This document shows positions 7,310 through 31,785 of a DNA stretch of 42,306 nt, one piece after another (the first letter of the stretch is position 1; the number at the start of each line of letters is the position of its first letter). Source of the stretch: a virus; IMG/VR virus record IMGVR_UViG_3300023179_000205, positions 1-42,306 of that record, one strand, 5' to 3'. Made by a program: the position numbers and the translations under genes. The notes under the pieces were generated by a model, which did no database searches, was not told the origin of the DNA, and saw only the letters and a program-made list of their open reading frames with translations.

Positions 7310-9634
7310 TTACGGTGATGGAATCAAGCAATAAATATCATATAAAATACTAACCCCTATTGAAATTACCAACCCACCTAATGGATCAAAATCACCAACA
7401 CAATTAGATTTTATTTGTATCTTATTATTTAATATATCAACAGTGTAACTACCAACATCAGTTATACCTGAAAGAATTTCCTCTAATGTATTTTGCCAAA
7501 TTATATCTTGTGGATAATCATTAAGTGTTGTTGCGGTATAAAAAGTTTCAGTAAAAGCTGATCCATTTATTTCTATTTCACAATTGAATGTTGCGGAACT
7601 TAAATAACAATTAGTTAAACCCGATGTTAAATCAACAAACCCTTCATTTAACATTTCAAAAAACCCTCTTTTATTACCACTCGTGGTTTCGAATTCATTC
7701 TTACATATATTAATAACCTCATATCCACTAATTAATGTTCCAGTACAAATAATTTGAAAGTTATGTATATTAAAACATCCATTACTATCGGTTACAATAA
7801 CACTATAAGTTCCGGCGGTTAATCCTGTAACTGTTGATCCTGTTTGTGAACAACAAACATTATTTGACCATTGATATGTAAATATTGGTTCTCCTTCGTA
7901 AATAATCACTTGAGCAGATCCGTCATTACCGTCTGTGCAGTTTGTTTTGTTAACACTACTTAATAAGGATCCTGTAGTCGCAATTGTAAAACTTTCACTA
8001 GAAATACATCCTGTTGAGTCTGTTACTGTTAGTGTATATGGTCCAGGACTGAGAAAATTAAATGTGGCAGAACTAAAAGGTGATACCTCAGAAAACCCAT
8101 TACTAAGATTATATGTTAATGGACTTGAGTATCCAGAACCTACAAAGATAGTAACCCCACCAGTCGCACTTCCACATGTTGCTCCTGTTGTTGTTGTGGA
8201 TAATGTGAATTTTTGTTCAGAATCTATTGTTAAATTACTACTATAAAAACAGTTTGTACCTGATCCTGAAATAGATAAGACGTAATTATCGTTTGGTAAA
8301 TTATTAAATGTATAAAACTGATCTTGACTAATATTACTATAAATTACACCACTTGTTTGTCCTGACAATGTATAGGTGTAAAATCCACCAAATCCTTGTA
8401 TTTCAACATATAAGTTTGCATTATCTTGGTTACAGTTAGAGTTAGTGATTATAGTATTAACCACATTAAATCCGTTTTGTTGTGATAAAAACCCATTGAG
8501 ATTTATTTCACAAAAATTAGCATCTCTTATGATAATAGGGTAAGACCCTGAACTTAAATTTGTAATTGTTACTGTATCACCTAAAGTGTACCCCACCTGT
8601 CCTGTGGATGCTGAAAAATATAAAGGTCTTGTTCCTCCAGTTATTGAATAGGTTATAGACCCATCTGAAGAAAAACAAGATGGTGTCACAGATGTTGTTA
8701 ACCCAACACCTAAAGGTTGAGCAGCATTAATAATTTCTGATTTTGTGGTACTACACCCTAAACTATCGGTTACTGTACAAGAATAAACGCCAGCAGTCAA
8801 ACCAGTAATTAATTGGCCAGTCTCACCATTAGACCAAAGATATGTAAATGGAGCTACTCCCGTTACTCCGGTTATTGCTAATTTACCTTTATCTATTACA
8901 CAATTAGATGTATCTACTTTCCAAAACCCAAAATCAACTGATGTACTATTATTAATAACAACGTTTTCAGTATTAGCGGTTGTGGACCCATAATCATAAA
9001 TGGTTGCGTAATAAATCCCACTATCTAAATTATAAAATGTGTATGGTAGATTATTTGTAGTTTGTAATTGGTTGAAATTTCCGTCTTTGTATAAAATTAT
9101 ATTATATGGTCCTGAATTTGATGTTGCTGAAACACTCAAAGTACCATTAGTTAATCCACAAGTAGTTCCGGATGTGTTGAATATATTTGCGTAAAAACAA
9201 TTAGATACGGTGACGTTTATATATAGCTCATTATTTTGTAAACCTAAGCTGTCATTTATTCTAAAAACATAAGTACCTCCAGTAAGTCCTGTATATGTGA
9301 ATGGTCCAAAACCAGTTTTAGTCGGTAATCCGCTACCTATAGGTGTTACCGGATCTATAGTATATGGTGGAGTTCCTCCAAATCCATTTATAATTACTGA
9401 CCCAGTAGCTGCTGAACATATTCCCGTAAGTTCAAAATTATAACTTAGTGGTCCTTGGTTACAATTTATGGTGCATGTCGAGCCAGAGTCCAAAATAACA
9501 CCTATCGCACTTCCCGAATATGTTGTATCAACACAAACATCCACTAAACCTGAAGATAGTCCTGTTTGGATCAATCCACAGCAATCGACATAATTATAAT
9601 ACCCACCTATTGTAAAACCACTAATACACGCCAT
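7310..9634 (-). CDS. SprB-repeat-like adhesin, probable tail fibre (774 aa)
   Basis: A 774-residue protein made mainly of tandem SprB/PKD-like beta domains. Clear copies include PFTYLWSNGETGQLITGLTA followed by GVYSCTVTDSLGC (about residues 260-295), and FTYQWSNNVCCSQTGSTVTG followed by LTAGTYSVIVTDSNGC (about 580-620). Weaker copies with PYT, GGTYVFRINDSLG, GPYTLTVTDSTGC and GSYPIIIRDANFC fill most of the rest. SprB repeats are known from the cell-surface gliding adhesin of flavobacteria. The N-terminus (MACISGFTIGGYYNYVDCCG) and the C-terminal 130 residues are outside the repeat pattern and may hold the virion attachment. The start codon overlaps the stop of the 981-residue gene (TAATG). 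A host-binding fibre is likely. Confidence 0.75.
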   Translation of the reverse strand: MACISGFTIGGYYNYVDCCGLIQTGLSSGLVDVCVDTTYSGSAIGVILDSGSTCTINCNQGPLSYNFELTGICSAATGSVIINGFGGTPPYTIDPVTPIGSGLPTKTGFGPFTYTGLTGGTYVFRINDSLGLQNNELYINVTVSNCFYANIFNTSGTTCGLTNGTLSVSATSNSGPYNIILYKDGNFNQLQTTNNLPYTFYNLDSGIYYATIYDYGSTTANTENVVINNSTSVDFGFWKVDTSNCVIDKGKLAITGVTGVAPFTYLWSNGETGQLITGLTAGVYSCTVTDSLGCSTTKSEIINAAQPLGVGLTTSVTPSCFSSDGSITYSITGGTRPLYFSASTGQVGYTLGDTVTITNLSSGSYPIIIRDANFCEINLNGFLSQQNGFNVVNTIITNSNCNQDNANLYVEIQGFGGFYTYTLSGQTSGVIYSNISQDQFYTFNNLPNDNYVLSISGSGTNCFYSSNLTIDSEQKFTLSTTTTGATCGSATGGVTIFVGSGYSSPLTYNLSNGFSEVSPFSSATFNFLSPGPYTLTVTDSTGCISSESFTIATTGSLLSSVNKTNCTDGNDGSAQVIIYEGEPIFTYQWSNNVCCSQTGSTVTGLTAGTYSVIVTDSNGCFNIHNFQIICTGTLISGYEVINICKNEFETTSGNKRGFFEMLNEGFVDLTSGLTNCYLSSATFNCEIEINGSAFTETFYTATTLNDYPQDIIWQNTLEEILSGITDVGSYTVDILNNKIQIKSNCVGDFDPLGGLVISIGVSILYDIYCLIPSP

Positions 9635-12579
9635 TATCCACAGTTAATTTGTACATTTATACCTATATTGAGATATAATTTTTTATTTGTAAAGTCATCA
9701 TAACAAGTACTGTTACTAACTATTAAAGTATTGCCTGAAAAATAGTAATTTAGTCCAAATTGGTATAAAACTGATAATTTATCATCTATAGCAGCCAATA
9801 CCTGACTATTAGATGGTATATCGTTTGATCCGTATCCAACATAAAATGGTTCTTGTACTAAAATAGTATTATCAAGTCTACAATCAACATACCAAGTTGA
9901 AACTATACTACTTAAATCACACTGAGATAATGTAAATCCACTAGTATTAACTATTTTATTAATAGCCGATGGTAATGTTTTAATAAATTCGCCACTTAAT
10001 TTACATCTTAGTGTTTGGTCAATACAATCATAACCAAATAATTGTCCGTTGAATTCGCAAGGCTTACAAGATACAGGTATGATTTGACAACCCCTTTGTC
10101 TTCTCCAAACAAACTTCTGCCTGTGAAAGATAGAGTTTTCATATTTTGCACCAGTTAACCAAAGTGTGGTTGCAGGTACAACCTGTTCTAATAAACGTTG
10201 CCAATGGTCACCTAAACCTAAAGTATAGTCTATCATTTTTTGATAAGTAAATTTATTAGAAGGTATCCCCACAGTTTCTTCGGATTGTAAATATTTCCAA
10301 TAAATTGATTGTAAAGCTGGATAACCGCCGGTTTTTCCATCATTTATGTATTGTCTATTTCTTACATTAATTAAATTATTATAAAATGTTTGAGCAAACT
10401 CAAAAAAAGTTTTTTCTTTTGGTTTAGGGTTAACAAATGTCCAATCTATCGCTCCAGGATATGGGTACGGTGATGTAAGTCCTGAATTTGGTATAGGGTA
10501 ATTATATTTTACGGACATGTCCCAAACATCATAAATAAGTCCTTGTCCAACGTTAACGTTTAACTCTATATTTTTTGAATTTATAACTAATTTATCGTTA
10601 CTTACATTATAATTAACACCATTAAAGTTAGAATTATTTTTTCTTGTTCCTGTTGATGTTGCTGGCCAAGATTTTTGGTTATCAGAAACTTTAGTTATTG
10701 TATAACCTTGATTTGTGAGTGGGAACTTTCTAAACCTATTTAAATAGTCTTGACCAAAACTATTGGGCTTTAGTTTTGTTACTATGTTTGGTTCATTTTG
10801 ATTCAATTGTGAATTTTCTAAATCTACTTCTTCCAAAGATCTGTGTTTTGGTGTTTTTTCAAACCATCCTGATCCTTTTTGAAAGAAATAATCTTGAGTT
10901 GGTTTTGGTGATTTAGGAAATCCTTCATCATCTATACCAAAATCATCTTTTGTTAATAGGTTTGTTTCAATGATTCCATCTGTGGTATAACCATTATAGG
11001 TTACTCCTTGAATTGAAAATGTGTTTGTTGGGTCTAAGACCGGTGTCTCAACATAAAAGGTCCCTCCTGTTAATTTAGCATAATCTTCTTTAAAGTCTTC
11101 TATATTTATTTTAGTATCAGCTAAATAAATTATTTCGTTAAATTCGGTTAACGCTTCAGGTGCACCGATAAACCTCATAATATATTCTAACGATTGTCTT
11201 GTTCCCTTCGTTTTAAACATATATGCCGCGTTCAATATCACATTCCTATAATATTGGTAGTTCAATTCTTGTGGAGTGCTGTCTTGTGATTGTCCGTCAA
11301 AAATTTTTGTAGTTGGTACTTTAAATAAAGAATTAAGTAAGTCCTCGTTATTGATTGGTGATATGTTTGTGTTTAAACCTAGTGTTTGAGCTAAATTTGT
11401 AAGTAAAGCAGAAGGAATATCATTTTTAACTTTATAATTTACAGAGTTTATAAACGCTAATGAATCAATAAATTTCTTAACCTCATCAAAACTTCTACCA
11501 TAAATTTGTAAAAGTTTTTCCATTTTTTTATCTTGTGTATCAAATTCTTTGAAAGATCCTGTAATTAGAAATCTAGAAATTAAATTAGTTTTAAATTCGT
11601 CTAGGTTTTCACTTATGCGATTTAAACTTTCCAAATATTGATCAAACTTACTTGTTCTTATATCTAAATTCCATAGACCGTCTATCGCCCAAGTTAACCT
11701 TTGTGTTTTACTTACATAGTCACCATCACTATCATATTCAGGATATGTGAAAGTGGAAGTATATTTAGGCGCACTTTCGGTATTCAAAAGGAACCTTTCA
11801 ACTTCATCAAAATCATTTTTTAATATTTCTTGTGTTTTTGTTTTATTTGGTTTAATAATAATTGTTTTTGTTGAAGATGTTAAACCAGAAAATGGGTTAC
11901 CTTTAACAATAATATATAAAGTTCCTTGCCCTAATTTTGTTGTTGGTTCTAACTCTAAAATATTATACTCATTGTCAAAATTTTCCACATATATTGAATA
12001 ATTTAGAAATCCATTTGTTAAGTCCCTATATTGTGAAACTTTCATGGGTCTAACTTCTAAATTTCTGCCAGCATTTATTGTATAATCTATTTCAAATGGG
12101 TTTCTTGCTAACGAACAATCTATTTCAAGTTCTGTTTCATCTTCTATTGAATTATATAAAATGTTAGTAGCAGTGAGACCTGTACTCAATGTTAGTGTCG
12201 TTGATACAACTTCCAATGCCGCAGGAAAATAATTTATTATTTTTGTTATAGATGCTGAGATTCTTTTTTGAAGTGATCCGTATAACGCAAAACTAGTGAT
12301 CTGTGAAATATCAAAATTAGGGTATACTTGAAAATTTTTTTGAATTAATTTTTTTGTTTCAAGAATATTTGTTATTTCTAAATTTTCTAAATTAAATTTT
12401 TTAGAAAAAACTCCTTGGTCAAATTGTCTATTTACCTTTTCATAAATGGCATTTGTAAAATCAAAAGTACCTAATGTAAGTCCTCCACCTGTAGTTTGTT
12501 GTACTCCTACAATATTTGAGAAAGCTGTATCACTACCTACTGGTGGTGCTGGTGGGAATTGAAATTTCTTTTTAGCCAT
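9634..12579 (-). CDS. Large baseplate protein with tail protein I-like region (981 aa)
   Basis: A 981-residue structural protein. Around residues 390-480 it resembles phage tail protein I: a helical stretch with SFDEVKKFIDSLAFINSV, SALLTNLAQTLGLN, then AAYMFKTKGTRQSLEYIMRF, where KTKGT is the family landmark. In P2-like phages that protein links the baseplate wedge to the tail fibres. The N-terminal part is beta-rich and starts with a Lys/Pro-rich MAKKKFQFPPAPPVG. The C-terminal part has a cysteine-rich patch (GCQIIPVSCKPCEF, YDCIDQTLRC). It is flanked by overlapping start and stop codons on both sides (12579 and 9634), and the adhesin gene follows directly, consistent with a fibre-docking role. 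The role is inferred from a short motif region and from position. Confidence 0.6.
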   Translation of the reverse strand: MAKKKFQFPPAPPVGSDTAFSNIVGVQQTTGGGLTLGTFDFTNAIYEKVNRQFDQGVFSKKFNLENLEITNILETKKLIQKNFQVYPNFDISQITSFALYGSLQKRISASITKIINYFPAALEVVSTTLTLSTGLTATNILYNSIEDETELEIDCSLARNPFEIDYTINAGRNLEVRPMKVSQYRDLTNGFLNYSIYVENFDNEYNILELEPTTKLGQGTLYIIVKGNPFSGLTSSTKTIIIKPNKTKTQEILKNDFDEVERFLLNTESAPKYTSTFTYPEYDSDGDYVSKTQRLTWAIDGLWNLDIRTSKFDQYLESLNRISENLDEFKTNLISRFLITGSFKEFDTQDKKMEKLLQIYGRSFDEVKKFIDSLAFINSVNYKVKNDIPSALLTNLAQTLGLNTNISPINNEDLLNSLFKVPTTKIFDGQSQDSTPQELNYQYYRNVILNAAYMFKTKGTRQSLEYIMRFIGAPEALTEFNEIIYLADTKINIEDFKEDYAKLTGGTFYVETPVLDPTNTFSIQGVTYNGYTTDGIIETNLLTKDDFGIDDEGFPKSPKPTQDYFFQKGSGWFEKTPKHRSLEEVDLENSQLNQNEPNIVTKLKPNSFGQDYLNRFRKFPLTNQGYTITKVSDNQKSWPATSTGTRKNNSNFNGVNYNVSNDKLVINSKNIELNVNVGQGLIYDVWDMSVKYNYPIPNSGLTSPYPYPGAIDWTFVNPKPKEKTFFEFAQTFYNNLINVRNRQYINDGKTGGYPALQSIYWKYLQSEETVGIPSNKFTYQKMIDYTLGLGDHWQRLLEQVVPATTLWLTGAKYENSIFHRQKFVWRRQRGCQIIPVSCKPCEFNGQLFGYDCIDQTLRCKLSGEFIKTLPSAINKIVNTSGFTLSQCDLSSIVSTWYVDCRLDNTILVQEPFYVGYGSNDIPSNSQVLAAIDDKLSVLYQFGLNYYFSGNTLIVSNSTCYDDFTNKKLYLNIGINVQINCG

Positions 12580-15448: not shown

Positions 15449-17159
15449 TTGTTATTCTATTTATCAACAATGACTGAACGTTATTGTCTCTTTGTATCGG
15501 GTATTGTAAAAATAATATATTAGAAAAGGGATAATGGTTCCCATTTAAAAATGGATAATCAACACCTATCCCGTCATTATCAACAAAACCATAACTATAA
15601 AGGTCTCTCCAAAACCAAGAATCATTAAATTCACTATACCAAGCATAACCAGGTATATTATCTATTAGATCTTTAGTTCCATTTTCTATATAATCACTGA
15701 ATGATCTGAGTTTTATTGGGTTATGTGGTGAATATAAATAACCTGAAGGTAAACTACTAGATGATGAATTAGAAAAATAAAGATCATTAAAAGAATATTT
15801 ATGATACATTTTAGATAAAATATATTCTTCTTGTTCGATGTCATTATATTCACAAAAGTCTCCTTTTATTATATCACCTTCATTTAAAAATTCATTATAA
15901 TTAAATGTTTGTCCATTTGCAATATAAGAACCTGATGGTATATTATCTTTATTCACTACTGAGTTTTTATCCCACCAATTATCAATACTATTTTTTAAAA
16001 AATTAAATTCCCAACCAATCTCAAGTCCTGTTAATTGACTATTTTGGTTTAAATACGGTCTATTGAACCATCCCATATACCCTCTTTGTATTAAACTAAT
16101 AAAAACTTCAGTTACTGGTTTCCCATTATTATCCGTCAACCCATCAATAGAAAGATCTGAGTCGAATGTGAATGAATATGTCTGTGTGTCGTCTTTTATC
16201 GATGTCCTTTCTGTTTGATTAGGTGTTAGTTGGGTATATTCAACTTTCCTTTTAACAAAAAATGGATTTTTTTCGAACCCAGCCTTTGATATATTACAAT
16301 CTTTAGGTGTTTTTAAAATCTTATGTAGTCTTATGTAATATCTTGATTTTGTTTCTGCTGAATTTATTATGTTTGAAATTCTTTTAAAAGTACCAAACGT
16401 ACCTGTTTGTATATCTGAAGGATTGAACTTAAGATTGTAAATTGAAAAAACATTAAGTTCTGATTTGTACGCACCATCGCCTATTGAATAAACCGGAAAA
16501 ACTGTTTTTCCGTTGATTGGAGTGGATAATTCTACGTACTGACCTACCTCTAAATTATGTTTTGTTGCACAATAAAAATAAACCAGATTTTTCCCATTAA
16601 ATGTTCCACTTTCTATAACATATGGTATACCATCACCACATAAAAAGCCATTATTTGTTACACCAAACTGTTCATTGGTATAGGACATTGTCTGTGCGGT
16701 AGTACTAGAAAAAGGATATGTTAAATAAAAAGACCAATTATAAGTTGATGCACTTTTATTGACAAATGTAATATGATTAGGTATACCTTCATTTCGACTT
16801 ACAGTAAATTCTCTAAACTGCGGGTAACCTTCCCAAGCAAAGTTAGGGTTCCCTATAGAAGCAATCGCATTAGAAATTGGGTTAGTGTAATAAAGTATGT
16901 TTTTATATGGATTATATGATGTTTTTCCTGTGACTGTATTATTTATAACATTTGTTATCTTACCCGCAATTCTAAATTTATCACTACTCTGTCTTTCATT
17001 GTCAAACACAACTTCTTGATCTACTAAAATAGTTCTATCGCCCTCAACATATTGTCTTATATCTGATAAAAGTGGAGGTTGTATCCAAACACTTTTGTTT
17101 GAATTAGACGCATATCTTAATGATCCTAATACTATTCTTATTTCGCTAGGGTTACTCAT
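15432..17159 (-). CDS. Structural protein of unknown function (575 aa)
   Basis: A 575-residue protein with many Tyr, Phe, Asn and Trp residues, suggesting a large extracellular-type beta fold. Recognisable stretches are SEIRIVLGSLRYASNSNKSV at the N-terminus, a Ser-rich loop SNSSSSSLPSGY near residue 465, and the helical IEQEEYILSKMYHKYSFN before it. No catalytic motif is seen. Its start overlaps the end of the 1645-residue gene by eight bases and its end overlaps the next gene by 17, so the four genes 1645, 575, 279 and 362 form one tightly coupled group. I infer a baseplate or fibre-base subunit. Confidence 0.6.
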   Translation of the reverse strand: MSNPSEIRIVLGSLRYASNSNKSVWIQPPLLSDIRQYVEGDRTILVDQEVVFDNERQSSDKFRIAGKITNVINNTVTGKTSYNPYKNILYYTNPISNAIASIGNPNFAWEGYPQFREFTVSRNEGIPNHITFVNKSASTYNWSFYLTYPFSSTTAQTMSYTNEQFGVTNNGFLCGDGIPYVIESGTFNGKNLVYFYCATKHNLEVGQYVELSTPINGKTVFPVYSIGDGAYKSELNVFSIYNLKFNPSDIQTGTFGTFKRISNIINSAETKSRYYIRLHKILKTPKDCNISKAGFEKNPFFVKRKVEYTQLTPNQTERTSIKDDTQTYSFTFDSDLSIDGLTDNNGKPVTEVFISLIQRGYMGWFNRPYLNQNSQLTGLEIGWEFNFLKNSIDNWWDKNSVVNKDNIPSGSYIANGQTFNYNEFLNEGDIIKGDFCEYNDIEQEEYILSKMYHKYSFNDLYFSNSSSSSLPSGYLYSPHNPIKLRSFSDYIENGTKDLIDNIPGYAWYSEFNDSWFWRDLYSYGFVDNDGIGVDYPFLNGNHYPFSNILFLQYPIQRDNNVQSLLINRITNDDCE

Positions 17160-20100
17160 CTAAGTTCAAAATGTATTTAGTTATATAACGATTTATTGCA
17201 CTTTTTCCTTTTCTTAAACCAAAATAAAAATGATATGGTGCACCAACAATAAAAGTGTCATTTTGAGATGGTGGCCATGTAGGTATTGGATTACCAGATC
17301 CATCTGTTTGGTAAATGAAACCTTGTTGTCCTGTTTGTGAATTATTAAAATATGGTGAAAATGGTGCCGCAGCAAAACTTAAGTCTTGGTATTTTTGTGA
17401 ATAATATGGTGGAGAAGTGTACCAATCATTAATATCCTCACCAAAAATGGTGGTCACATTATTGTTTTTCCATTTATAAAATGGTACTTCTTGTGTATTA
17501 GGGTATCCATAATTATCAAAAAGTGGTGGTGTAATAGAAAAAGTAGTAATACCTGGACTAATAACTTTTCTATTTATGGTGTTAGATGAAAAATAAATAC
17601 CCATAAGTGCACCACCTGAATTTCCTGGTCTGATGTAAATTCTAGTGTCGTCATAATTGTCATCAGAATATGCATCAACACCATATTCTGAATTTATACT
17701 AAACATTTGGACTACGTCACCATCCAAACGATTTTCACTTCTTGAAAACATCTTATCTATTGACGCGTCTCCTGAAGCTAATAACCCACCTAACCAACTT
17801 GTATTCATCAGTCTAGATATGATTGCCAATTGAAGAATATCTGCAGTGTCATTAAATGATGTTGACTTAACAGTATCAACAATATAACCTTGAAAAGATG
17901 GGTCTTCACATATTTCTTTTGTAAATTGATCTCTTGGTCCTAAGTCAGTAATAGTTGTTGGAAAAAATAAATTCCTATCATTTAAACCTTTAAACTTTGG
18001 TGCTACTGGTTGATATGTTGGATTAAAAAATGTTGCTTGTTCTGCTATTTGTCCAACAAAATTTGTTCCATCATATGGTGAAGATCTATAGAAAAATGAA
18101 TTTGTTGTACCTTCAGTATAAAAAACAGGTCCTTGACCTTCTCTATAGATTGAGTCATGTGTTCCGCAAAACTTATATTTTTTTGGTTGTCCTTGTACAT
18201 CGAAAATTGTTTGTTTTTTAAACGTAAACATATACATAGATCCATTTACCCAGTTATTTTGAAATACGTGTGAAAATACACCTCTACACGCAGCAAACAT
18301 AAATCTAAATCTTGTCTTCCACTCCAATAAGTTTTTAAAATCACTAACAAAGGTTATTATCGGAGTTTTAACTAATCTATAACAACCTCCACTTATTCTT
18401 TCGGGAGTTGTGTTTTCTGGACATGGGTCAAGAACTTGAATTGTTGTGTTTCCATTAACATCTGTTGTATTTTCATAACACTTAAGTGGTACCATTCCTT
18501 CACAACTAAACGAACCTAAAACACTATCAACATTACTTGGTGTATCACCTGATAAATCTTCCGCATTGTTTGTGGTGTCTGTTGCTTGTGTACCTGTATT
18601 AAATGTTTCAAATGACTCTCCACCATCAACTTTATATATTGCAAAATTATCGTTTTGGTGTAATAAAAATGAGTTGTTATTAGAAATTTGTGTCGAGTCA
18701 GATGTAGGTAATCTATCTGATCTTAAAATAAGTTTAGCATTATTAGATGTGTTATCGTATGATATTGTAACATTTAATGTTGGGTCTGTTTTGTGATACG
18801 CGGGAGAATAAACCCTAGCATTTGTACTTATTGTGTCTTGAAAGTTGCATGTACTTGGGTTAGATGCGGCAATTATACTTCCACCCTCAACTACTCCTTG
18901 ATATTGTATTGTAGAAGTCGATAACGCACCTCTTTGAATTATATTAGGTGAAGAAATATCACTCCATCCGCCATTTGTAAAATACCCTAAATTTGTAGCA
19001 GCATTATCTGGTTTAAAATTTGGGTGTGCTATGTCTAACGAAGAATAGTATGAAATATTATTTGTTGTAACGGATGTATAATCTACATTTGTTACTTTAA
19101 AGTCAAAAGGCTTATGATATAAAGATGATATTGGATATGATACTTGGTGTGATTCAGGTGTGTTTTGGTTCTTCCACCAATTAGATGAAATAGAACCTGT
19201 ATTTTTTTGTATCGGTACGTTCATATAAAATTCACCACTTATAGAAACTGAGTTGTTAAAAAATGAGTGTCCAAAAATTCTAGATAAGTCATATTTTATA
19301 TTTTGTTTTTTAGTCCAAACGTCAACACCTCTTACTAAAAATAATACTTCAAGATTTTGATAATCGTTAAGTATTGTTAATGGATTTATGTTTTGAAATT
19401 CCATATTACTTCCATCAGGTTTATAACAAATTTCTTGTCTAGAGTCTAAAATAAATCTATTCAATATACTAGAGTATCCGCCTGTTACTAAAGATGTAAT
19501 ATTACTTACACTCATACCGGTAAGTACTTGAAAGTACTCAATACCTGTTTTGAATTTATATTCTGATTCTGTTGTGTTACCAGTAATATAAACTTGCGAT
19601 GTTAGTTCAATACCTGAATTAGTTATGTACTTTACGGGAACCGCAAACTCACCAACACTAGTTTGACCAGTAATAGAATTACTACCAAACTGGTTTTGTA
19701 TTGGTGATCCACTTATATTAACGTCTATAACGTTATTTGGGTTATTAAAAGATATTACTGAACCACTGTTTAAATTTTGGCTAGTACCTTGTTCAACTAA
19801 TAAAATCATTATATTATCAGTGAAAGGTGTGGAAGGAACTGATGTTTGATTAATTACGGTCGTTTGAATAATATTAGGAGATATAGTATCGAAATATCTT
19901 TGTCTTAAATTCATTAAATTTAATGATTGAGAAAAGGTTATATTTTTTTGTAGTGTAAAACCGTCAGTAGGTGAGTATTTAATCTGTAAGGGTACTCCTA
20001 CATATACTGAGTTAACGTCTTGATAACCAGCAATTGCGTATCTAACACCTATTTGATCAGCGGAATATTTAGCACTCTTATTGGGGATAGTGTAATCTTC

Positions 20101-22089
20101 TTCATCTATGTTTGGTGGTTGGTAGTTAGCCCAAAAAGATGTGGAATTAACATCAGCTAAAACCGATCCATTACCTCTACTATATACAGTATATGGGCCT
20201 ATTTCTGTTTCGGTGTTACCTCCACCACCAAATAAATTTGTATTAATTTCTTCCACTTCAAAGTCAGGACTATCACAAGGACACGCTTCACAATCAGGAA
20301 AAGAAATCATCGGTAGGTTAATTCCTTTAAATTTTAATTTTTTTATTTGATCCCATTTTCTAACTATTAAAGTGGTGTAGGTTATTGCTGCTGCCAAAAA
20401 AACAGCTCCAGCAATAATATTTAATGCCATACTACCAAATGCAGGCCAACCGGCAATACCTTGTGCAATAAAATAACCAGCATAGTAATATAGTATACCA
20501 CCAATAAAAAATACAAATAACCATTTCAATAATGGAAATAAAAAGGCCAAAATGTGTATTATTGGTAATAAGGCCGCGATAATTAAACTAAAAATAGAAA
20601 CCGATAAATTCATCAAAAAAGTTAAAAAATCAAAATTCCTAACTCCATCATTTACTGGGAACCTATTATTTGTGGTGGTACAAGTTCTGTCTGTTATTTC
20701 TTTTATACCTAAATGTCTAACTCTATTTTTTCCCCATTTCCATCTATCAATAAAATTAGAAACAGTATAAACTTTATTATAATTGAACTCATAAAAGAAA
20801 TCATCGCAGTCAATACCCGCCTGTGGATCGGCATAATCATTCCAATCTAAGCTAAAAGCATATGATTTTAATTGTTGTGTTTGGTTTATAGATGCAAATT
20901 GACCATTTGATGTCCAACCGTACTCTCTAATATTAGGAACCAAATAATCTGCCCTTAGAATGTCATTTTTTAAACCATCTTCATTTTGATATTTTATTCT
21001 AAATCTATATTTTGCCTTTGTTGGTATACCGATGCTTGGATCGTTTGATATGACTTGATTACCAAATTCGTCAGTTATTACAAAATCTAAATTCATTGGT
21101 AACTCAACTAACCATGTTCCGTCGTCATTTATAACATCCCCTCCTTCAGGTAAACTAAATTGTTCCAATATTGGTTGTCCGTCTGCATCATAATTGATTG
21201 TGTGTCTAATTGCTAATATTTTACCAGAACCTGTTGTTAAATCACATAGATTTCCTGTATTTTTTTTTGGTTTACAATTTGACTTTAAAAAATCTTCCTC
21301 AGTTGATGAAATAACGGACCCCATGAAAATAGATTGTGGTTTTATTTCAATACCCAAATCTCTTAAATCAAAATCAACCCTTGTAATACCTATGTCACAA
21401 ACTTCTTGTTCTCCCCAAAAAGATGAAACGTTCACATCTTTTTTTTGATTAACTATTTGAGGTAAAGAATCTATGTCTGTTGATGATTTGAATCTATTCC
21501 CATTAAACTGTCCTGGTGCTCCGACACCTAATCTAATTAAATCTGATGGTGAAAGAGAGAAACAACCTATGTTAGATAAATCCAAATCCATCATAATTGT
21601 TTGTATACCAAGAGGTACCCCAATGATCATAAAATCACCACTTTCATTTGTTTTTACGGTATATTTATAATATTTTTCATACACTTCCAAAACTTCATTC
21701 CTTGTCAGTACGTCTTCTCTATCTGGAAATGTTCCTGTGGGTGTGTGTCCTTGATACTCTTGTTTATAGGGTAGTAAATTATATCTATATCCGTCTTCGT
21801 TTTTTTGTTCAATTGATTTATATGGATAAAGTGTTGATATTACTGGATCATTTTCATCTTGGGTTGATAGTGGCACAAATACGGACACATTTGCGTTTGG
21901 TATTCCGTATCCACCATTAGTTATAACCCTACCAACAACAACACCATAATCGGCACAAAACCTAGTATATACGTCATCTTGTCTAAGTTTAAGTGATAGG
22001 ATTTCTAAAAAATCAAAATCTTGATTTATATTTATCCTAATATTTTTATTTTCACCAGGCGTTGTTCTTATCCTATAGGTCTTGGTCAT
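17152..22089 (-). CDS. Giant tail/baseplate protein with central membrane-like segment (1645 aa)
   Basis: A 1645-residue protein following gp6, the position held by gp7 in T4. Near the N-terminus, GVVVGRVITNGGYGIPNANV and later GDFMIIGVPLGIQTIMMDLD look like a carboxypeptidase-regulatory-type beta sandwich. At about residues 487-578 there is a run of roughly four strongly hydrophobic helices (for example IFSLIIAALLPIIHILAFLF and GAVFLAAAITYTTLIVRKW), followed by a cysteine cluster FPDCEACPCDSP. The rest, more than 1000 residues, is soluble and beta-rich, with conserved-looking stretches such as FKNLLEWKTRFRFMFAACRG near residue 1250 and GPRDQFTKEICEDPSFQGYI near 1385. Predicted membrane helices are unusual in a baseplate protein. 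Family unknown; structural role inferred. Confidence 0.65.
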   Translation of the reverse strand: MTKTYRIRTTPGENKNIRININQDFDFLEILSLKLRQDDVYTRFCADYGVVVGRVITNGGYGIPNANVSVFVPLSTQDENDPVISTLYPYKSIEQKNEDGYRYNLLPYKQEYQGHTPTGTFPDREDVLTRNEVLEVYEKYYKYTVKTNESGDFMIIGVPLGIQTIMMDLDLSNIGCFSLSPSDLIRLGVGAPGQFNGNRFKSSTDIDSLPQIVNQKKDVNVSSFWGEQEVCDIGITRVDFDLRDLGIEIKPQSIFMGSVISSTEEDFLKSNCKPKKNTGNLCDLTTGSGKILAIRHTINYDADGQPILEQFSLPEGGDVINDDGTWLVELPMNLDFVITDEFGNQVISNDPSIGIPTKAKYRFRIKYQNEDGLKNDILRADYLVPNIREYGWTSNGQFASINQTQQLKSYAFSLDWNDYADPQAGIDCDDFFYEFNYNKVYTVSNFIDRWKWGKNRVRHLGIKEITDRTCTTTNNRFPVNDGVRNFDFLTFLMNLSVSIFSLIIAALLPIIHILAFLFPLLKWLFVFFIGGILYYYAGYFIAQGIAGWPAFGSMALNIIAGAVFLAAAITYTTLIVRKWDQIKKLKFKGINLPMISFPDCEACPCDSPDFEVEEINTNLFGGGGNTETEIGPYTVYSRGNGSVLADVNSTSFWANYQPPNIDEEDYTIPNKSAKYSADQIGVRYAIAGYQDVNSVYVGVPLQIKYSPTDGFTLQKNITFSQSLNLMNLRQRYFDTISPNIIQTTVINQTSVPSTPFTDNIMILLVEQGTSQNLNSGSVISFNNPNNVIDVNISGSPIQNQFGSNSITGQTSVGEFAVPVKYITNSGIELTSQVYITGNTTESEYKFKTGIEYFQVLTGMSVSNITSLVTGGYSSILNRFILDSRQEICYKPDGSNMEFQNINPLTILNDYQNLEVLFLVRGVDVWTKKQNIKYDLSRIFGHSFFNNSVSISGEFYMNVPIQKNTGSISSNWWKNQNTPESHQVSYPISSLYHKPFDFKVTNVDYTSVTTNNISYYSSLDIAHPNFKPDNAATNLGYFTNGGWSDISSPNIIQRGALSTSTIQYQGVVEGGSIIAASNPSTCNFQDTISTNARVYSPAYHKTDPTLNVTISYDNTSNNAKLILRSDRLPTSDSTQISNNNSFLLHQNDNFAIYKVDGGESFETFNTGTQATDTTNNAEDLSGDTPSNVDSVLGSFSCEGMVPLKCYENTTDVNGNTTIQVLDPCPENTTPERISGGCYRLVKTPIITFVSDFKNLLEWKTRFRFMFAACRGVFSHVFQNNWVNGSMYMFTFKKQTIFDVQGQPKKYKFCGTHDSIYREGQGPVFYTEGTTNSFFYRSSPYDGTNFVGQIAEQATFFNPTYQPVAPKFKGLNDRNLFFPTTITDLGPRDQFTKEICEDPSFQGYIVDTVKSTSFNDTADILQLAIISRLMNTSWLGGLLASGDASIDKMFSRSENRLDGDVVQMFSINSEYGVDAYSDDNYDDTRIYIRPGNSGGALMGIYFSSNTINRKVISPGITTFSITPPLFDNYGYPNTQEVPFYKWKNNNVTTIFGEDINDWYTSPPYYSQKYQDLSFAAAPFSPYFNNSQTGQQGFIYQTDGSGNPIPTWPPSQNDTFIVGAPYHFYFGLRKGKSAINRYITKYILNLDE

Positions 22090-22163: not shown

Positions 22164-24002
22164 TTAGCTGAAGTCAACGGTTCTTAATTGTTTAACTCTA
22201 ATATTGATGTCTCTAGAGTCAAATCTTATTTGGTATATCTGATTTGGTTCGGCAAAAACAGTATCATCTATTAATTGTATTTCTTTTGTTTCTTTATTTG
22301 AAAACCTTTGTGATGTTTCTGAAGAAGAGTACAAACCTCCAACCTTATTATATACTTTTAAATCTGTCAAACTAACAACACCCGCAGTGTTTTGTATTAA
22401 TTTTCTTACATCTGAAATATTAACATTTTGACCAAGATCTCTGTTTGATGGTAACATATATGTCGATATTTGTTCTATAACGTCAGTAATAATTTCACTT
22501 TGTGATGTGTTAATATCTATTACTATAGATACTTCAAATTCTAAGTCAATGACTTTTGCCACGTCTATTGATATATAATCATTTACCATTCTATATTTAG
22601 ATAGATATGTGGCTAAATTTGTTTTTAAACTATTTGGTACTTGTTGTGTTAGATTTCCGTCACTATCGAATGCTAATATCTGAATTGTAATTTTATTATC
22701 ATTTTCAACAATAGCAACTTTAGCAGGAGCTCCAAATTTACCAGGCATAGTATCAATTAATGATTTATAATCATTTACGGTTACTGCCCTTTTTTGAGCA
22801 GCGAAATTAAATGAAACCATATTTCTTACCTCCTCAGTTGTTGGTGGGTTAGCCCCTCCAACTGCACCTGTTACATTATTTATTGATAACGATTTAATTA
22901 CATTTGCGTTTATATTATCTGATGGCCCATTAACATTAAAATCAACAACACCTACTTGATTAATAACACCGACACCAACATTTGATGAGGTACCGCCACC
23001 AACCCTATATTGTACAAAAAGAGTTGTATTTGGTGTTACTGTAAGCCCTAAACCTATATTATTTTGATAATTTTGTATATTTAAATTGGTACCTAATCTA
23101 GAAAATTGTTGTAATTGTTGATTTGGTGTTGTTGTACCTCCACCAAATTGTAATTTCATATATCCTTCAGGTGTATATTCGGTAATAAATCTATTATCTG
23201 TTTTAATGTATTTACCCACTTTTATACCAGCTTTATCAACAGGTTTTGTTGGGTCTTCTATAAAAACGGTGTCTTCTGCTAATGCGTCGACTTCGTACCA
23301 TTTATTTGTCGATGTTACAAATTCTGTTGACTTTGGTGTTGATTGGTATTGTGTTCCGTCTTTTTGTATTATCGATGTAATACCTAAAACATTTTTTTCA
23401 GGTAGAAAAAAATTAAAAAAAGGTGTAACGTCTTGTGGATTAATTACTCTTTTAAAAACCTTAGTAGTACCATTAACGACAACCTCTCTTTTTGTTATTG
23501 TGTAATTAACTATATTGTTATTAGTATCAAATGTAGGTATTTTAGTTCTATTAACAATCCCTTCATTATTATATTGTGTTGAGAAGTCTACATCATAAAT
23601 TGTTTCAAAAATGGCCCCTCCACCATTAAATTGAGCACCAGCTCTAAGTATACCTAAATATCTTGTATCTTCATTGTCACCAAATGCAGGTACTGTTATT
23701 GATATATCGACTAAAGCAACTGACGGTCTAAAACCAGGTATTTTTAATCCATAAGTTCTTGCGATATTATAAATTGATGATCTTTGTTGTGCATACTGTA
23801 GCACTGTTTCTTGTATACTCCTATCAATATGAAAATGTAAATTATCACCTATAGCGGCATTTAAGTCCATTAAAACGGAGAAAATAGACGCGTCATTGAA
23901 ATTTTGTATTACATCAGGATAATACTGCTGAGTGTAATTTATTAAGTCTTGTCTAAGACTTTCAAAATCCCTACTAGTATAATTTATTCTATTATTTGCC
24001 AT
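22164..24002 (-). CDS. Baseplate wedge protein, gp6/baseplate J-like
   Basis: A 612-residue protein matching the T4 gp6 type of the baseplate J family. The N-terminus INYTSRDFESLRQDLINYTQ and the following FNDASIFSVLMDLNAAIGDN and HFHIDRSIQETVLQYAQQRS are classic for the family. The C-terminal half carries KRAVTVNDYKSLIDTMPGKF and KVAIVENDNKITIQILAFDS, as in J-like proteins. Length is close to T4 gp6 (about 660). In T4, gp6 dimers form the continuous ring that joins the wedges and rearranges on infection. The gene starts one base after the gp25-like gene, its usual partner in contractile systems, so the pair is translationally coupled. Confidence 0.92.
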   Translation of the reverse strand: MANNRINYTSRDFESLRQDLINYTQQYYPDVIQNFNDASIFSVLMDLNAAIGDNLHFHIDRSIQETVLQYAQQRSSIYNIARTYGLKIPGFRPSVALVDISITVPAFGDNEDTRYLGILRAGAQFNGGGAIFETIYDVDFSTQYNNEGIVNRTKIPTFDTNNNIVNYTITKREVVVNGTTKVFKRVINPQDVTPFFNFFLPEKNVLGITSIIQKDGTQYQSTPKSTEFVTSTNKWYEVDALAEDTVFIEDPTKPVDKAGIKVGKYIKTDNRFITEYTPEGYMKLQFGGGTTTPNQQLQQFSRLGTNLNIQNYQNNIGLGLTVTPNTTLFVQYRVGGGTSSNVGVGVINQVGVVDFNVNGPSDNINANVIKSLSINNVTGAVGGANPPTTEEVRNMVSFNFAAQKRAVTVNDYKSLIDTMPGKFGAPAKVAIVENDNKITIQILAFDSDGNLTQQVPNSLKTNLATYLSKYRMVNDYISIDVAKVIDLEFEVSIVIDINTSQSEIITDVIEQISTYMLPSNRDLGQNVNISDVRKLIQNTAGVVSLTDLKVYNKVGGLYSSSETSQRFSNKETKEIQLIDDTVFAEPNQIYQIRFDSRDINIRVKQLRTVDFS

Positions 24003-24003
24003 A

Positions 24004-24468
24004 TTATATATTAATTATTATAAACTCTCTTGACCCAAAAGAACTATTATTGTTTGTGTAATCAATCCTCAACTTAGCGGTATATTCCTGTGTGTTTCTT
24101 CCGGGCACTTTATATATATCTGATGTACCTAATAATTCAGTATTCAAATCTCCAGGAGCCTCATCTGATTGTAAGTAGGGGGTTACTGATATATTATCAA
24201 CAATTAAATTTGGGATATACTTTTCAACTTGTTCTTGTATATCTGATTTAATTCCTTCAAAAGTTTCTCCATCCATAGGGTCGAATATAAATTCATAAAT
24301 TCTTGTTCCAAAATCAGGTAAAAAATATCTACTTCCCTTTCTTGTTAGTATTAAATGAAGTAGGTCAGATCTTATTTCTTGATCGGTTGTTTCTGATAAT
24401 GAAAAATAAAACCCTAAAGGGCTATCCCTAAATGGAAAATTAACACCGTAAAAAGAACCATTAGCCAT
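24004..24468 (-). CDS. Baseplate wedge protein, gp25-like
   Basis: A 154-residue protein of the gp25/lysozyme-like wedge family, which contacts the sheath and nucleates its assembly. Residues 32-66 show the family core: IRSDLLHLILTRKGSRYFLP then DFGTRIYEFIFDP, corresponding to the usual T-x-x-G-x-R-x-x-P-x-F-G signature. Length is slightly above T4 gp25 (132) because of a C-terminal extension with RNTQEYTAKLRIDY. It is directly followed by gp6. Upstream is a TATTTAT element (24474-24480) five bases before the ATG, and further upstream the DUF5522 gene ends in a terminator, so this gene probably begins a new late transcript. Confidence 0.92.
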   Translation of the reverse strand: MANGSFYGVNFPFRDSPLGFYFSLSETTDQEIRSDLLHLILTRKGSRYFLPDFGTRIYEFIFDPMDGETFEGIKSDIQEQVEKYIPNLIVDNISVTPYLQSDEAPGDLNTELLGTSDIYKVPGRNTQEYTAKLRIDYTNNNSSFGSREFIIINI

Positions 24469-24828: not shown

Positions 24829-26688
24829 TTATACAATTTCACATGCACCTCCAGCACAAGCAACTTCTCCTCTTAAATCAGTATTGTCTTGTAATTCAAT
24901 GACCTTTGTTAGGTCAATATTAGTTAATGTTTTTACTAAGTTTTCATACTCATCTTTTGTACAATCAGAAAAAGGAGCTTGGGTATAGGTTCCACCATTG
25001 TATGGTAATACTGAAAGTCCGTTATAGAAGTCTCTATTATTCCACATCCATTCACCAACTAATTCCCACTCATCTTCTTTAATTGAAACAGTTGCTGAAA
25101 CGTTATGTGTATTTTGTCCATTTCTATGTCCTGGTTTAATCCATTCTTGTGAAACTTTTTTAACTCTTTCTAACATCTGAAATACTGATTCGTGTCTCAC
25201 AATAGACCCTTCAGGTGCTCTTTGTGGTATTGTAATAACCGCAGTGTCGTGTGGTCTAAAGTATTCATCTTCAATTAATTCAGGGTGATTGATTGCAAGG
25301 TATGAATAAATTGATTCATTTTTTCCTACACGAATTCTTCTTAGGTAGTAATCATTATGCCATGCATGAATTCCTGATGATGTTCCCAATACCAATGATG
25401 AGGTCCCTGATGGTTTAACTGTAGTTGTTCTTGCTGATTTATTAATGTTAATAAGTCCTGCAACTCTTTCGTTTTCTTCTTTAACCATTTTGGCCGCTCT
25501 CTTCATGTCATAACCTAACACAACACCTGAACCAATACCTGTCATACCAACACCGATAAGTGCGTCTTTTTCGGTTGTTCTTTTCCAAATATCTCTCAAG
25601 TAATGGAAGTCAGTATATCCTGCCTGTAAAGTACCAATGAATGATGCTGCTTTAACTCTTTTATCAAAATCTTCTTGTGATTCAATATCTGAAGCATTTA
25701 CCTCACATAGGTTACAGAATTGGAATGGTCGTAGTGCAATTTCGCAACAAGGGTTTGTTCCCCAATCTTTATCGTTAGATAGATAAATTCCTGGTTCTCC
25801 TGCTCCTGATAATTCAATACGTTTCCACAAATCCATAAAGAATTCTTTTGTGATTTTGTGACGAAGAAGTACCGCTGAGTTATTTGCTCTACCTCTTTGT
25901 GCATTTTGTTCCCACCAATTTCCTGACTTACAAGAAATCATTTCTTCATCGTCAGCTGAAAACAATGAAATAAGTGCCGCTCGTCTGATACCACCTGCAA
26001 GAACTGCGTCTGCAATATGACAAACAATGTCGTGTGTTTCAATAGGTGTTAATCTTTCACCATCTTTTTTGTTATCCAAAACTTTAGTAATGTGGTGGAT
26101 ACAATCTTTTAATGGTTGAGGTCCCGGAGCCTTACCTCCTGATGTTACAAGCATCGCACCTTTTTGTCTGATGTCTGAAAAATCAAACACAGGTGTTGAT
26201 GACTTATAACCTAAATATGATTCCATCAATACTTTAATGGCATCTGCCCATCCTTCAATAGAGTCACCAATTAGATAACGTCTTGTTCTTTCAGGGTTTG
26301 GTTTTTTTATTTCTGGTAGTTTTTCAACATGGTGTTTTTGAACTGAGTAACCAACTCCTGTTCCACCTAAAAGTAAAAACATTGTTTCAGAAAATGCGTC
26401 TACATGATCGATTGGCATATATGCACAATTGTAAACTCTATTTGGTGAGATTTCAATTGGTTTTCCACCAAATTGTAATGACCTCATAGATGGTAAAACT
26501 TTCTTGTCATACACCATTTTATATACCTCTTCTATCTCGTCTTTGATGTGAGGGTATTTTCTTTGGTGCATTTCTTTGTTACGTGTTACCAATTCTTCCC
26601 AAGTCTCTCTTCTGTTTAATTCAGGTTGAAACTTAGCGTATTTCATAAAGACAGTAATGTCACTTAATATTTTTTGCGAAATATCCAT
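24829..26688 (-). CDS. nrdJ: Class II (adenosylcobalamin-dependent) ribonucleotide reductase
   Basis: A 619-residue reductase making deoxyribonucleotides for phage DNA. The monomeric class II (RTPR-type) layout is visible. An N-terminal Cys lies in VYNCAYMPIDH (C88). NPCCEIALRPFQFCNLCEVN (about residues 312-331) supplies the thiyl-radical Cys, the Glu two residues on, and a Cys eleven residues on. A C-terminal CAGGACEIV has the shuttle pair C611 and C616. PSGTSSLVLGTSSGIHAWH is also typical. There is no separate small subunit nearby, which fits class II and implies dependence on host B12. A TTG at 26697 could add three residues; I chose the ATG at 26688. It lies 24 bases after the helicase gene, so nucleotide supply and replication are linked. 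It is shorter than Lactobacillus RTPR (739). Confidence 0.88.
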   Translation of the reverse strand: MDISQKILSDITVFMKYAKFQPELNRRETWEELVTRNKEMHQRKYPHIKDEIEEVYKMVYDKKVLPSMRSLQFGGKPIEISPNRVYNCAYMPIDHVDAFSETMFLLLGGTGVGYSVQKHHVEKLPEIKKPNPERTRRYLIGDSIEGWADAIKVLMESYLGYKSSTPVFDFSDIRQKGAMLVTSGGKAPGPQPLKDCIHHITKVLDNKKDGERLTPIETHDIVCHIADAVLAGGIRRAALISLFSADDEEMISCKSGNWWEQNAQRGRANNSAVLLRHKITKEFFMDLWKRIELSGAGEPGIYLSNDKDWGTNPCCEIALRPFQFCNLCEVNASDIESQEDFDKRVKAASFIGTLQAGYTDFHYLRDIWKRTTEKDALIGVGMTGIGSGVVLGYDMKRAAKMVKEENERVAGLININKSARTTTVKPSGTSSLVLGTSSGIHAWHNDYYLRRIRVGKNESIYSYLAINHPELIEDEYFRPHDTAVITIPQRAPEGSIVRHESVFQMLERVKKVSQEWIKPGHRNGQNTHNVSATVSIKEDEWELVGEWMWNNRDFYNGLSVLPYNGGTYTQAPFSDCTKDEYENLVKTLTNIDLTKVIELQDNTDLRGEVACAGGACEIV

Positions 26689-26712
26689 TTTATTCAAATT
26701 TAATAATTTATT

Positions 26713-28095
26713 TTAAGATTCTTGTTGTTCTTTTTGTTTTTTTCTTTCTAACAGTTCTTTTATTCTGTTCCGATTCTTTTCTTCTTTTTGTTCTTCGTGA
26801 CCTAAGAATGTCACACTTTGTTCTGTATCTATTTCTAACATACCGTTATCGAACTTACAATTTTCAAATATAATTCCATCTTTACCGATCCTTGATTTTG
26901 TGATTGCGATTGTTGCCAAGTTCATTTCTTTTTGTTGTAATGATTTTGCGACCGTAATAATAACGTGTCCAACTTGTGCCTTTTTAATAGAACCACCCAT
27001 TTGATCTGTTGTTACAACCTCTGATGATATTGAATTTCTGTTACCTTGTGTTGCCGTCCATCCCGCTATATCCAACTCGTGACACATTGCTTCAAATCCT
27101 CGCATTACCGATCCTTCACTCTTCCATTCATCACCTAATGCTTTGTCAGGAACCACACAGTCAATATAGTCTAAAATAACCATATCAATTTTTATCCCTT
27201 CAGCAACCATCTTTCTTATTTGATTTTTAATCTGATTCATAGTCACAGTATCAGAAGGTAATTTTTTCAATATCAATTTGTTTTTTCTAGATGATTGAAG
27301 TTCTTTTACTTTTTCTGTTACTTCTTTTCTATTTTCAGAAAGATCGTCAGGGTGTATTCCTGTCCAAAGTGTAAAGTGTTTTCTTTGGATAATTTTTGGG
27401 TTGTCTTCAAAAAATATCTGAAGAACATTATACCCTAAGTTAAATGCGTGGTTAGCAATCTTTGTTGTGAACGTGGATTTACCAACACCGGTTGGTGCTA
27501 AGATAACACCGATTTCACCTTTAGCAAGACCACCTTTCAATAAGTTGTCAATACCAGGTACTCCAATTGGAATTGGATGTCTGTAATCATCATCCAATAC
27601 CTCATCAAGGTTAAAAAACACATCTGTTGTCCCCTTATCTACTTCACCAACTTGAAGTGCTCCCCTTACCATTTCTTCTAACTTATCATAACTTTCAAAA
27701 TCACCTTTATCGATGATTGATTGAGCCTTGGTCATTACTTTTTGGAGTTCTTGTTGTTTACAGAATTTAAGAGACTTTTCTTGAACAAATATTGAACCCT
27801 CGTCTGAAACGTTCTTAACCTGATCTAATGTGTCTAAAACGCTCTTTTGAGCCATCGGTGAACTGATTTCTGATTTAGTCAATTGTTCAAGGGTATCAAA
27901 TGTCGGTGTATGCTCATAATTTGAATAATATTCTTTGATCATTTGACAAATAATCTTAAAATATTGGTTATCAAAATAATGAGGATCAATAACTTCAATG
28001 ATGGAATTAGAAAAATCTTTGTAAGTAATTATGTTGTTTAGTAATTGAATTTGAAAAGTATTTCCTAAGTATCCGAAGTTTTTTTTGTCTGACAT
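26713..28095 (-). CDS. Replicative DNA helicase, DnaB/T4 gp41-like
   Basis: A 460-residue helicase. The N-terminal 150 residues are a helical DnaB-type domain, and the RecA-like domain starts with IGVPGIDNLLKGGLAKGEIG. Walker A is APTGVGKST (200-208) and Walker B is DMVILDYID with D309. GWTATQGNRNS near residue 350 corresponds to the sensor/H3 region. The C-terminus is a Lys/Glu/Gln-rich tail (RIKELLERKKQKEQQES), which may contact a primase or loader. No primase domain is fused and no primase gene appears in this window. An AACTATATTTATTAAAAC element (ATAAATA at 28124-28130 on the plus strand) lies 28 bases before the ATG. The gene is followed by the reductase gene. Confidence 0.9.
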   Translation of the reverse strand: MSDKKNFGYLGNTFQIQLLNNIITYKDFSNSIIEVIDPHYFDNQYFKIICQMIKEYYSNYEHTPTFDTLEQLTKSEISSPMAQKSVLDTLDQVKNVSDEGSIFVQEKSLKFCKQQELQKVMTKAQSIIDKGDFESYDKLEEMVRGALQVGEVDKGTTDVFFNLDEVLDDDYRHPIPIGVPGIDNLLKGGLAKGEIGVILAPTGVGKSTFTTKIANHAFNLGYNVLQIFFEDNPKIIQRKHFTLWTGIHPDDLSENRKEVTEKVKELQSSRKNKLILKKLPSDTVTMNQIKNQIRKMVAEGIKIDMVILDYIDCVVPDKALGDEWKSEGSVMRGFEAMCHELDIAGWTATQGNRNSISSEVVTTDQMGGSIKKAQVGHVIITVAKSLQQKEMNLATIAITKSRIGKDGIIFENCKFDNGMLEIDTEQSVTFLGHEEQKEEKNRNRIKELLERKKQKEQQES

Positions 28096-28133
28096 ATTGT
28101 ATAGATTTTTGTTCCTTGTTTTAATAAATATAG

Positions 28134-28586
28134 TTAAGCAAACGAATAATTAAGATAGTTGTAAGATAAATTTTTGTCTGATAAAATGTCAGTCAATTCT
28201 CTTAAAATGTTTTTTATGTCTGGTCGTATATCCAGCGTATATCTTACCTTTGGTGGGTATAATTTCGCGTCAATTACTCTATGACAAATTGTCTTATTTC
28301 CGACCTTTAAAATAATGTTAAATACTTCGGGTCCGTCTGTGTTTGATGTTTCTAAAACGCTTGGGTCTTCTTCAATTTGGTATCTGTTGTCTAACATATA
28401 AACCATACACTTGTTTCTCAATTTTGTTTGAAGTGACTCAGATAGATACTTAATGTAGTCGTATAATTCAACTGATTTTTCAGTCTTTTCTTCATATCCC
28501 TTTACATTAAAGAATCTTTGAACCACAAAATTGTTGTTAAGTGTAATTAGAAACTCAACCTTTGTTACATCATTCTGCTCTTTCAT
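28134..28586 (-). CDS. Unknown protein in replication module (150 aa)
   Basis: A 150-residue protein I cannot assign. It has two predicted beta-rich segments (VEFLITLNNNFVVQRFFNVK and EVFNIILKVGNKTICHRVID) and a C-terminal helix (PDIKNILRELTDILSDKNLS). It has no membrane segment and no nuclease, ATPase or zinc motif. It begins four bases after the exonuclease gene and precedes the helicase, so a replication accessory role such as a loader or a small DNA-binding factor is possible, but that is context only. Confidence 0.6.
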   Translation of the reverse strand: MKEQNDVTKVEFLITLNNNFVVQRFFNVKGYEEKTEKSVELYDYIKYLSESLQTKLRNKCMVYMLDNRYQIEEDPSVLETSNTDGPEVFNIILKVGNKTICHRVIDAKLYPPKVRYTLDIRPDIKNILRELTDILSDKNLSYNYLNYSFA

Positions 28587-28590
28587 AATT

Positions 28591-29598: not shown

Positions 29599-30313
29599 TT
29601 ACCACACTAATTAATGGTTCAACAATTTTGTTTCCTTTTTTCATATTTTCAACAGCCCACAGAGGTTGTAAGTTAGTATAATAGCATAATTTGTAAAGTT
29701 CTTCTTCTGTTTTTGCCGAAGACAATGGGATTATATGATCTATGTGCCACTCACTTCTATTATCCCAAGTCATTCCTCGACTAAATTGTTTTTCTAAGTG
29801 TTCTTTTAATTCTTGAGGTGTACATCCAATAATTTCAAAAGTTTTATTTTTTTTAGTGATGTTACTTTTCTTTAAATAATTACATAATCTTGACCTCATA
29901 CCACATAATAATGAATAGACTGTGTTGTTTTTTTTCTTGTTAGATTCATAAATATTTCTAATATTTTTAGTATTTTTTCGATACGTTTTATTTTTATCAA
30001 GTATTTCTTTTTTATTAATATTATAATATATTTTTTTTCGATCATTAATTTTATCTAAATTTTCTTGTCTATATTTTTTTTGATAGTCTAAGACGGTCTG
30101 TTTTGTTTCTTGATAATGTTTTTTAATTTTTTCTTTATTACTATTTCTCCACTTTTTTTTTCTCTCTGAGACATTGTCACCCACATATGTTTTTTCAATA
30201 CTATTCCGGCATTTTTTACAAAAGTATCTATACCCATCTTTTGAAGATTTCAACTTACCAAATTCGCAAATGTTTTTTTCAACATTACATTTAGTACAAA
30301 CTTTTGTCTCCAT
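29591..30313 (-). CDS. HNH endonuclease with N-terminal zinc finger, free-standing
   Basis: A 240-residue nuclease. The N-terminus has a CxxC...CxxC zinc ribbon (C6, C9, C32, C35). The middle is a very Lys/Asn-rich helical arm with a repeating pattern of Tyr, Asn and Lys that probably lies along DNA. The C-terminal HNH core is EWHIDHIIPLSSA (H190, D192, H193) followed by TNLQPLWAVENMKKGN (N214, N223). Such genes are mobile in T-even-type phages. It overlaps the RHH gene by 23 bases and the exonuclease gene by eight, so it has become translationally tied to both. Its very low GC and Lys content differ from the neighbouring replication genes, in line with acquisition. Confidence 0.88.
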   Translation of the reverse strand: METKVCTKCNVEKNICEFGKLKSSKDGYRYFCKKCRNSIEKTYVGDNVSERKKKWRNSNKEKIKKHYQETKQTVLDYQKKYRQENLDKINDRKKIYYNINKKEILDKNKTYRKNTKNIRNIYESNKKKNNTVYSLLCGMRSRLCNYLKKSNITKKNKTFEIIGCTPQELKEHLEKQFSRGMTWDNRSEWHIDHIIPLSSAKTEEELYKLCYYTNLQPLWAVENMKKGNKIVEPLISVVNE

Positions 30314-30455: not shown

Positions 30456-30504
30456 ATTAATAAATATCACCAAATAACTAAAAAGTATAATTATTTATAT
30501 TTTA

Positions 30505-31774: not shown

Positions 31775-31785
31775 AATATTTTAAA

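Follow-up and report, generated by a model that had tools for sequence, protein, structure and literature searches.

Why would a large protein encoded beside viral baseplate genes carry a long stretch that resembles a membrane segment? The question is raised by a 42,306-base stretch of virus DNA (the window), in which the gene call and the homologues place the gene of a 1645-amino-acid tail-cluster protein with a hydrophobic block, P0001, at 17152 to 22089; a preliminary description had the coordinates right, and the strand is minus. On the same strand lie the genes of a gp6-type baseplate wedge protein (22164 to 24002; phrog_219, E-value of 4e-23) and a gp25-type baseplate wedge protein (24004 to 24468; PF04965, E-value of 3e-11). 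Flavobacterium phage immuto and two others encode the closest named relatives of the window's gp6 (25 to 28% identity). On longer contigs of relatives there is a sheath-type protein and, where the tube gene would be expected, a short conserved gene, so this is a contractile-tail phage. Both gp25 and gp6 consistently accompany the P0001-family gene (177 and 184 loci), and from gene position and this synteny we infer that P0001 is part of the baseplate or virion. By synteny, then, P0001 is a putative baseplate protein, and it has membrane-type helices.

The window has several other features of its own. Between the tail genes, 24829 to 32637 contains genes of the replication and nucleotide metabolism type, most of which match those of the relative G001 at 83 to 96% (the RecA-like one at 59%), far above most tail proteins. 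A protein with tandem PPADPAAGAE repeats is encoded at 32738 to 33484, between a 2176-amino-acid hub-like gene and a 283-amino-acid gene, and the overlapping open reading frames there look like repeat artefacts. A fibre-like protein with long PTPTPT repeats is found at 579 to 2234.

Hydrophobic block and domain layout

The strongly hydrophobic stretch that had been claimed at about residues 487 to 578 is present, at residues 486 to 577 of P0001 (20359 to 20634, minus strand), and is evident from hydropathy, insertion energy, and the hydrophobicity kept in homologues. The best 92-residue Kyte-Doolittle mean in the protein is 1.64, compared with a maximum of 1.18 in 2,000 shuffles, and 4 of the 92 residues of the block are charged. 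An approximate re-implementation of the dG insertion-energy scale gave three segments in the block, at residues 495 to 517 (−1.4), 520 to 541 (−2.1), and 554 to 576 (−0.4), and a best segment of +0.96 in all other proteins of the window. In the 124- to 203-kb region of G001, no other protein of at least 150 amino acids has such a segment (dG of <0.5). The block is real and exceptional in the window. The about four helices of the preliminary description are unsupported, as the dG scan gives three segments and both AlphaFold2 models contain two long antiparallel helices, predicted at residues 486 to 546 (helix 1; 20452 to 20634, minus strand) and 551 to 583 (helix 2; 20341 to 20439, minus strand). 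Helix 1, with 61 residues and a length of approximately 90 Å, exceeds one bilayer. In structure, this part is matched best by seryl-tRNA synthetase, in its hairpin of long antiparallel helices (Z of 6.7 over 69 residues), a likeness that may be no more than a common arrangement.

AlphaFold2 predicts the protein as a whole to be mostly β-strand and coil, in a large β-rich architecture. Its domains, all on the minus strand, begin with a conserved N-terminal region (residues 1 to 482; 20644 to 22089), whose halves have mean pairwise identities of 76% and 66%. Within residues 47 to 250 (21340 to 21951), where model confidence is moderate, the predicted structure contains a transthyretin/Cna-B-type β sandwich (VIA-align Z of 8 to 9 to unrelated proteins), a common fold that gives neither family nor function. 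Just after the block lies the cysteine cluster noted previously, which holds up as an invariant CxxCxC motif (C600, C603, and C605; 20275 to 20292) kept in 62 of 62 homologues. It is followed by a variable β-rich middle region (residues 606 to 1244; 18358 to 20274), which is reduced or missing in short relatives; a second conserved cysteine group, C1196, C1204, C1223, and C1236 (18382 to 18504), is retained in 53 to 62 of the 62 homologues. The conserved C-terminal domain (residues 1245 to 1645; 17155 to 18357) abuts the N-terminal region in relatives that lack the block. Cysteines at positions 45, 231, 272, 282, 470, 600, 603, 605, 1196, 1236, 1268, and 1308 are invariant across the 62 homologues and could possibly form metal sites or disulfides.

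Relatives of P0001 and loss of the block

P0001 belongs to no family in Pfam, PHROG, or NCBIfam, its profile (A1) matched no PDB chain at an E-value of ≤1, and tblastn against named phages returned no match. In GTDB genomes the same profile yielded 55 pattern matches and no relatives. Around the gp6 gene of Flavobacterium phage immuto, Microcystis phage Mel-JY01, and LR756508, no gene has homology to P0001 or carries a comparable block. Foldseek, for which long multidomain models are weak queries, matched the C-terminal model to nothing in PDB or BFVD below an E-value of 0.001, gp7 included. The family is uncultured and abundant in IMG/VR, where the plain P0001 query identified 70 loci, the profile at least 574 relatives, and a profile of the N-terminal region at least 582, the latter two each among 600 stretches listed; the three lists overlap.

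The assignment of P0001 to gp7 in the preliminary description is probably wrong: besides having no family or PDB match, P0001 only adjoins gp6. A better candidate for a gpI/gp7-type wedge protein is encoded at 9634 to 12579 on the minus strand. This 981-amino-acid protein, which bears the motif KTKGTRQSLEYIMRFIG, is the window's sole Tail_P2_I candidate, at an E-value of 0.012 that falls below the cut-off, and the weak match recurs in its orthologues; in 6 of 13 related records, the best Tail_P2_I match was a protein of similar size with the same motif. Searches of Pfam, PHROG, and PDB with the 981-amino-acid family gave no support for gpI/gp7 identity. We regard the protein as a probable wedge component, a lead that rests on the weak Tail_P2_I matches. 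In the lineage of G008, the gene of the P0001 relative that lacks the block stands well away from gp6, on the downstream side of the 981-amino-acid gene's homologue.

How well is the block conserved? In the 62 window-like homologues it consists of at least 61% AILMFVWC residues (mean of 68%, compared with 34% for the whole protein). In pairwise comparison the block is on average 35% identical (24% in residues 521 to 584) and the C-terminal domain 54%. Block identity is low next to the 66 to 76% of the N-terminal region, and the AILMFVWC content stays at ≥61%: hydrophobicity is kept while the sequence drifts. Block length varies from 55 to 96 residues, and in more distant clades the N-terminal region is likewise followed by one to three segments of this kind. 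The conservation check proposed earlier thus found the block in nearly all homologues, and its absence is confined to a few distant lineages rather than close homologues. L149, L201-L205/L208 (about 810 to 829 amino acids), and L247 (773 amino acids) are without both the block and the following cysteine-rich stretch, and in L149/L202 and L247 the N-terminal region is fused straight to the conserved C-terminal domain; L304 (811 amino acids) retains only a weak hydrophobic helix remnant.

In the phylogenetic tree, the lineages lacking the block nest in clades that have it, for example L149/L202 beside L206/L207/L216 (98% SH-aLRT), and the simplest reading is that an ancestral, removable module was lost. 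The tree rows L130, L308, L311, L291, L271, L280, and L293, labeled as lacking transmembrane segments, are artefacts of domain-boundary scanning, and the segments are present; because of these labels, a tree count of 10 block changes was set aside. As the N-terminal region continues straight into the C-terminal domain when the block is missing, its two ends should be close in space, and its clean loss with retention of the flanking domains argues against a role as the core of a soluble fold. In 132 nonredundant sequences, the mean net charge was +1.1 in the 30 residues before the block and +1.2 in the 25 residues after it, compared with −0.9 in random windows. The flanks are positive in 85 (before) and 81 (after) of the 132, a modest bias among related sequences. 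Positive charge before and after the block fits a hairpin whose two ends face the same side of a membrane.

Tape measure proteins of the group

A 612-amino-acid protein is encoded between the tube and baseplate genes of G001 (213,924 bp), and some members of its family (A5) match tape measure families: phrog_167 in two members (best E-value of 7.8e-18) and TMP_3 in one (0.0022). We rejected P0001 itself as the tape measure protein, because it is mostly β-strand and coil and the separate family A5 fits better by its phrog_167 match and position. Across 25 genomes that have the block (11, G009, and another 13, a few of which have borderline blocks), the tape measure protein contains no predicted transmembrane segment (dG of <0.5); some of these proteins have glycine-rich hydrophobic stretches. 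The tape measure protein of the lineage G008/G010/G024/G025, which lacks the block, has seven predicted transmembrane segments. These four genomes are near identical and count as one event, and theirs is the sole lineage without the block in which the tape measure gene is readable. G023 and G004 yielded no tape measure gene; the contig of G004 starts inside the gp6 gene. On L237 (1081 to 3873), of the lineage that lacks the block, the seven predicted transmembrane segments lie at residues 509 to 820 of the tape measure protein and are absent from its relatives. L223-L239 and L325-L338 form a divergent tape measure family. A paper on the moraphages (PMC12619734) reports that group to be without an identified tape measure gene.

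Did the helices move from one tail protein to another? A general rule by which loss of the block goes with a gain of helices in the tape measure protein is not upheld, since G042 (the contig of L304) has neither strongly: no transmembrane helices are predicted in its tape measure protein, and its tail cluster showed no other strong transmembrane candidate. The exchange is one suggestive case and no rule. We consider it rather unlikely that the membrane-crossing part of the DNA injection machinery moved between tail components of this group, residing in P0001 in most members and, in at least one lineage, in a tape measure protein with seven segments.

Possible roles and comparison with known tail proteins

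The reading that we favor, with less than even confidence, is that the block is a helical hairpin module able to insert into membranes, which the tail protein would keep covered until infection sets it free. The hairpin module would be inserted in an otherwise soluble tail or baseplate protein, followed by the conserved cysteine cluster, and would be shielded within the baseplate in the virion. Upon infection, a rearrangement of the baseplate could free the hairpin to insert into the host envelope, where it might anchor the tail or help to line the DNA passage. Were P0001 a peripheral component of the wedge, it would reach the outer membrane more easily than the inner one. The more specific suggestion of the preliminary description, insertion into the host inner membrane during DNA delivery, is speculative. 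The hairpin proposal is supported by the hydrophobicity above that of shuffled sequences and the three negative insertion energies, as well as by the hydrophobicity kept under sequence drift, the presence of the block in divergent clades, its removability, its positive flanks, and its being the sole such segment in the G001 region; the megatrons of RcGTA and R4C and pb2 of T5 are precedents. The tape measure proteins, without helices in the 25 genomes with the block and with seven in the G008 lineage, are counted in its favor; that this exchange comes from one lineage, with G042 having neither, counts against it, as does a helix 1 longer than the bilayer.

The same long helices, which AlphaFold2 does not pack into a compact membrane bundle, would suit a hydrophobic bundle that several subunits form within the baseplate, away from any membrane, and the best structural match is a hairpin of this kind, that of seryl-tRNA synthetase. 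Burial in an oligomer would also permit the sequence to drift while hydrophobicity is kept. However, with so few charged residues the block does not resemble a bundle that has a solvent-exposed side, its flanks are net positive, and the whole module is cleanly lost in some relatives, and we regard such a bundle as somewhat unlikely. The preliminary description had proposed that packing of the helices inside a soluble fold would refute a membrane role; clean loss makes packing within one fold less likely, and burial between subunits remains compatible with the data.

By the positive-inside rule, the positive flanks suit insertion from the cytoplasm no less than insertion from outside, and they do not discriminate between roles in infection and in assembly. 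With cytoplasmic insertion, both ends of the block would in most homologues lie in the cytoplasm, where the protein is made, and from there the block could tie P0001 or an assembly intermediate of the baseplate to the inner membrane of the infected cell, aiding tail morphogenesis. We consider such an anchor improbable: the charge bias is modest among related sequences, and the structure would still have to leave the membrane to yield a free virion. It is very improbable that P0001 is a nonvirion phage membrane protein merely encoded among tail genes. The lack of a family or fold match to a known virion protein would fit this idea, but gp25 and gp6 are consistently found at the same loci, the architecture is large and β-rich, and the N terminus of P0001 shows no evident signal peptide.

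To our knowledge, little is understood of how contractile-tailed phages bring their DNA across the inner membrane once the tail has contracted. A hydrophobic module that is conserved yet removable, in a tail protein other than the tape measure protein, is a concrete candidate for this step, and the hundreds of environmental sequences, with lineages that have or lack the block, provide a natural comparison.

One true relative of P0001 came from BFVD, the uncharacterized protein A0A8S5LA66 (Myoviridae sp. ctPuP5), a database entry with no assigned function. The model of residues 1 to 1190 matched it with an E-value of 7e-24, at 38% identity across 456 columns of the alignment. T4 gp7 and P2 gpI resemble P0001 in that their genes are directly downstream of a gp6-type gene; unlike them, P0001 has no sequence match, and the weak Tail_P2_I motif is in another protein of the window. 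The earlier statement that baseplate proteins normally lack membrane-like segments was too strong, as the megatron proteins of RcGTA and roseophage R4C have predicted membrane-penetrating helices, in an iris-penetration domain proposed to enter the host outer membrane (PMC7296036, PMC10276861). P0001 showed no PDB sequence or fold match to the megatron or to a gp27-type hub, although absence from match lists does not settle homology. The tape measure proteins of T5 (pb2; PMC10038345) and diffocin (CD1366; PMC10996793) have two to five predicted transmembrane helices, for which a channel was proposed. P0001 at most works like these proteins by analogy, as no homology to any of them was found. 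With the megatron it shares a hydrophobic helical part in a large baseplate protein, and with pb2 and CD1366 it shares predicted transmembrane helices in a tail protein. However, pb2 and CD1366 are tape measure proteins, and the group of P0001 has its own tape measure protein in a separate gene. The megatron segment is short and N terminal, in a hub-type protein of noncontractile tails, whereas that of P0001 is a multihelix insert in the middle of a protein from a contractile-tail phage and is followed by a cysteine cluster.
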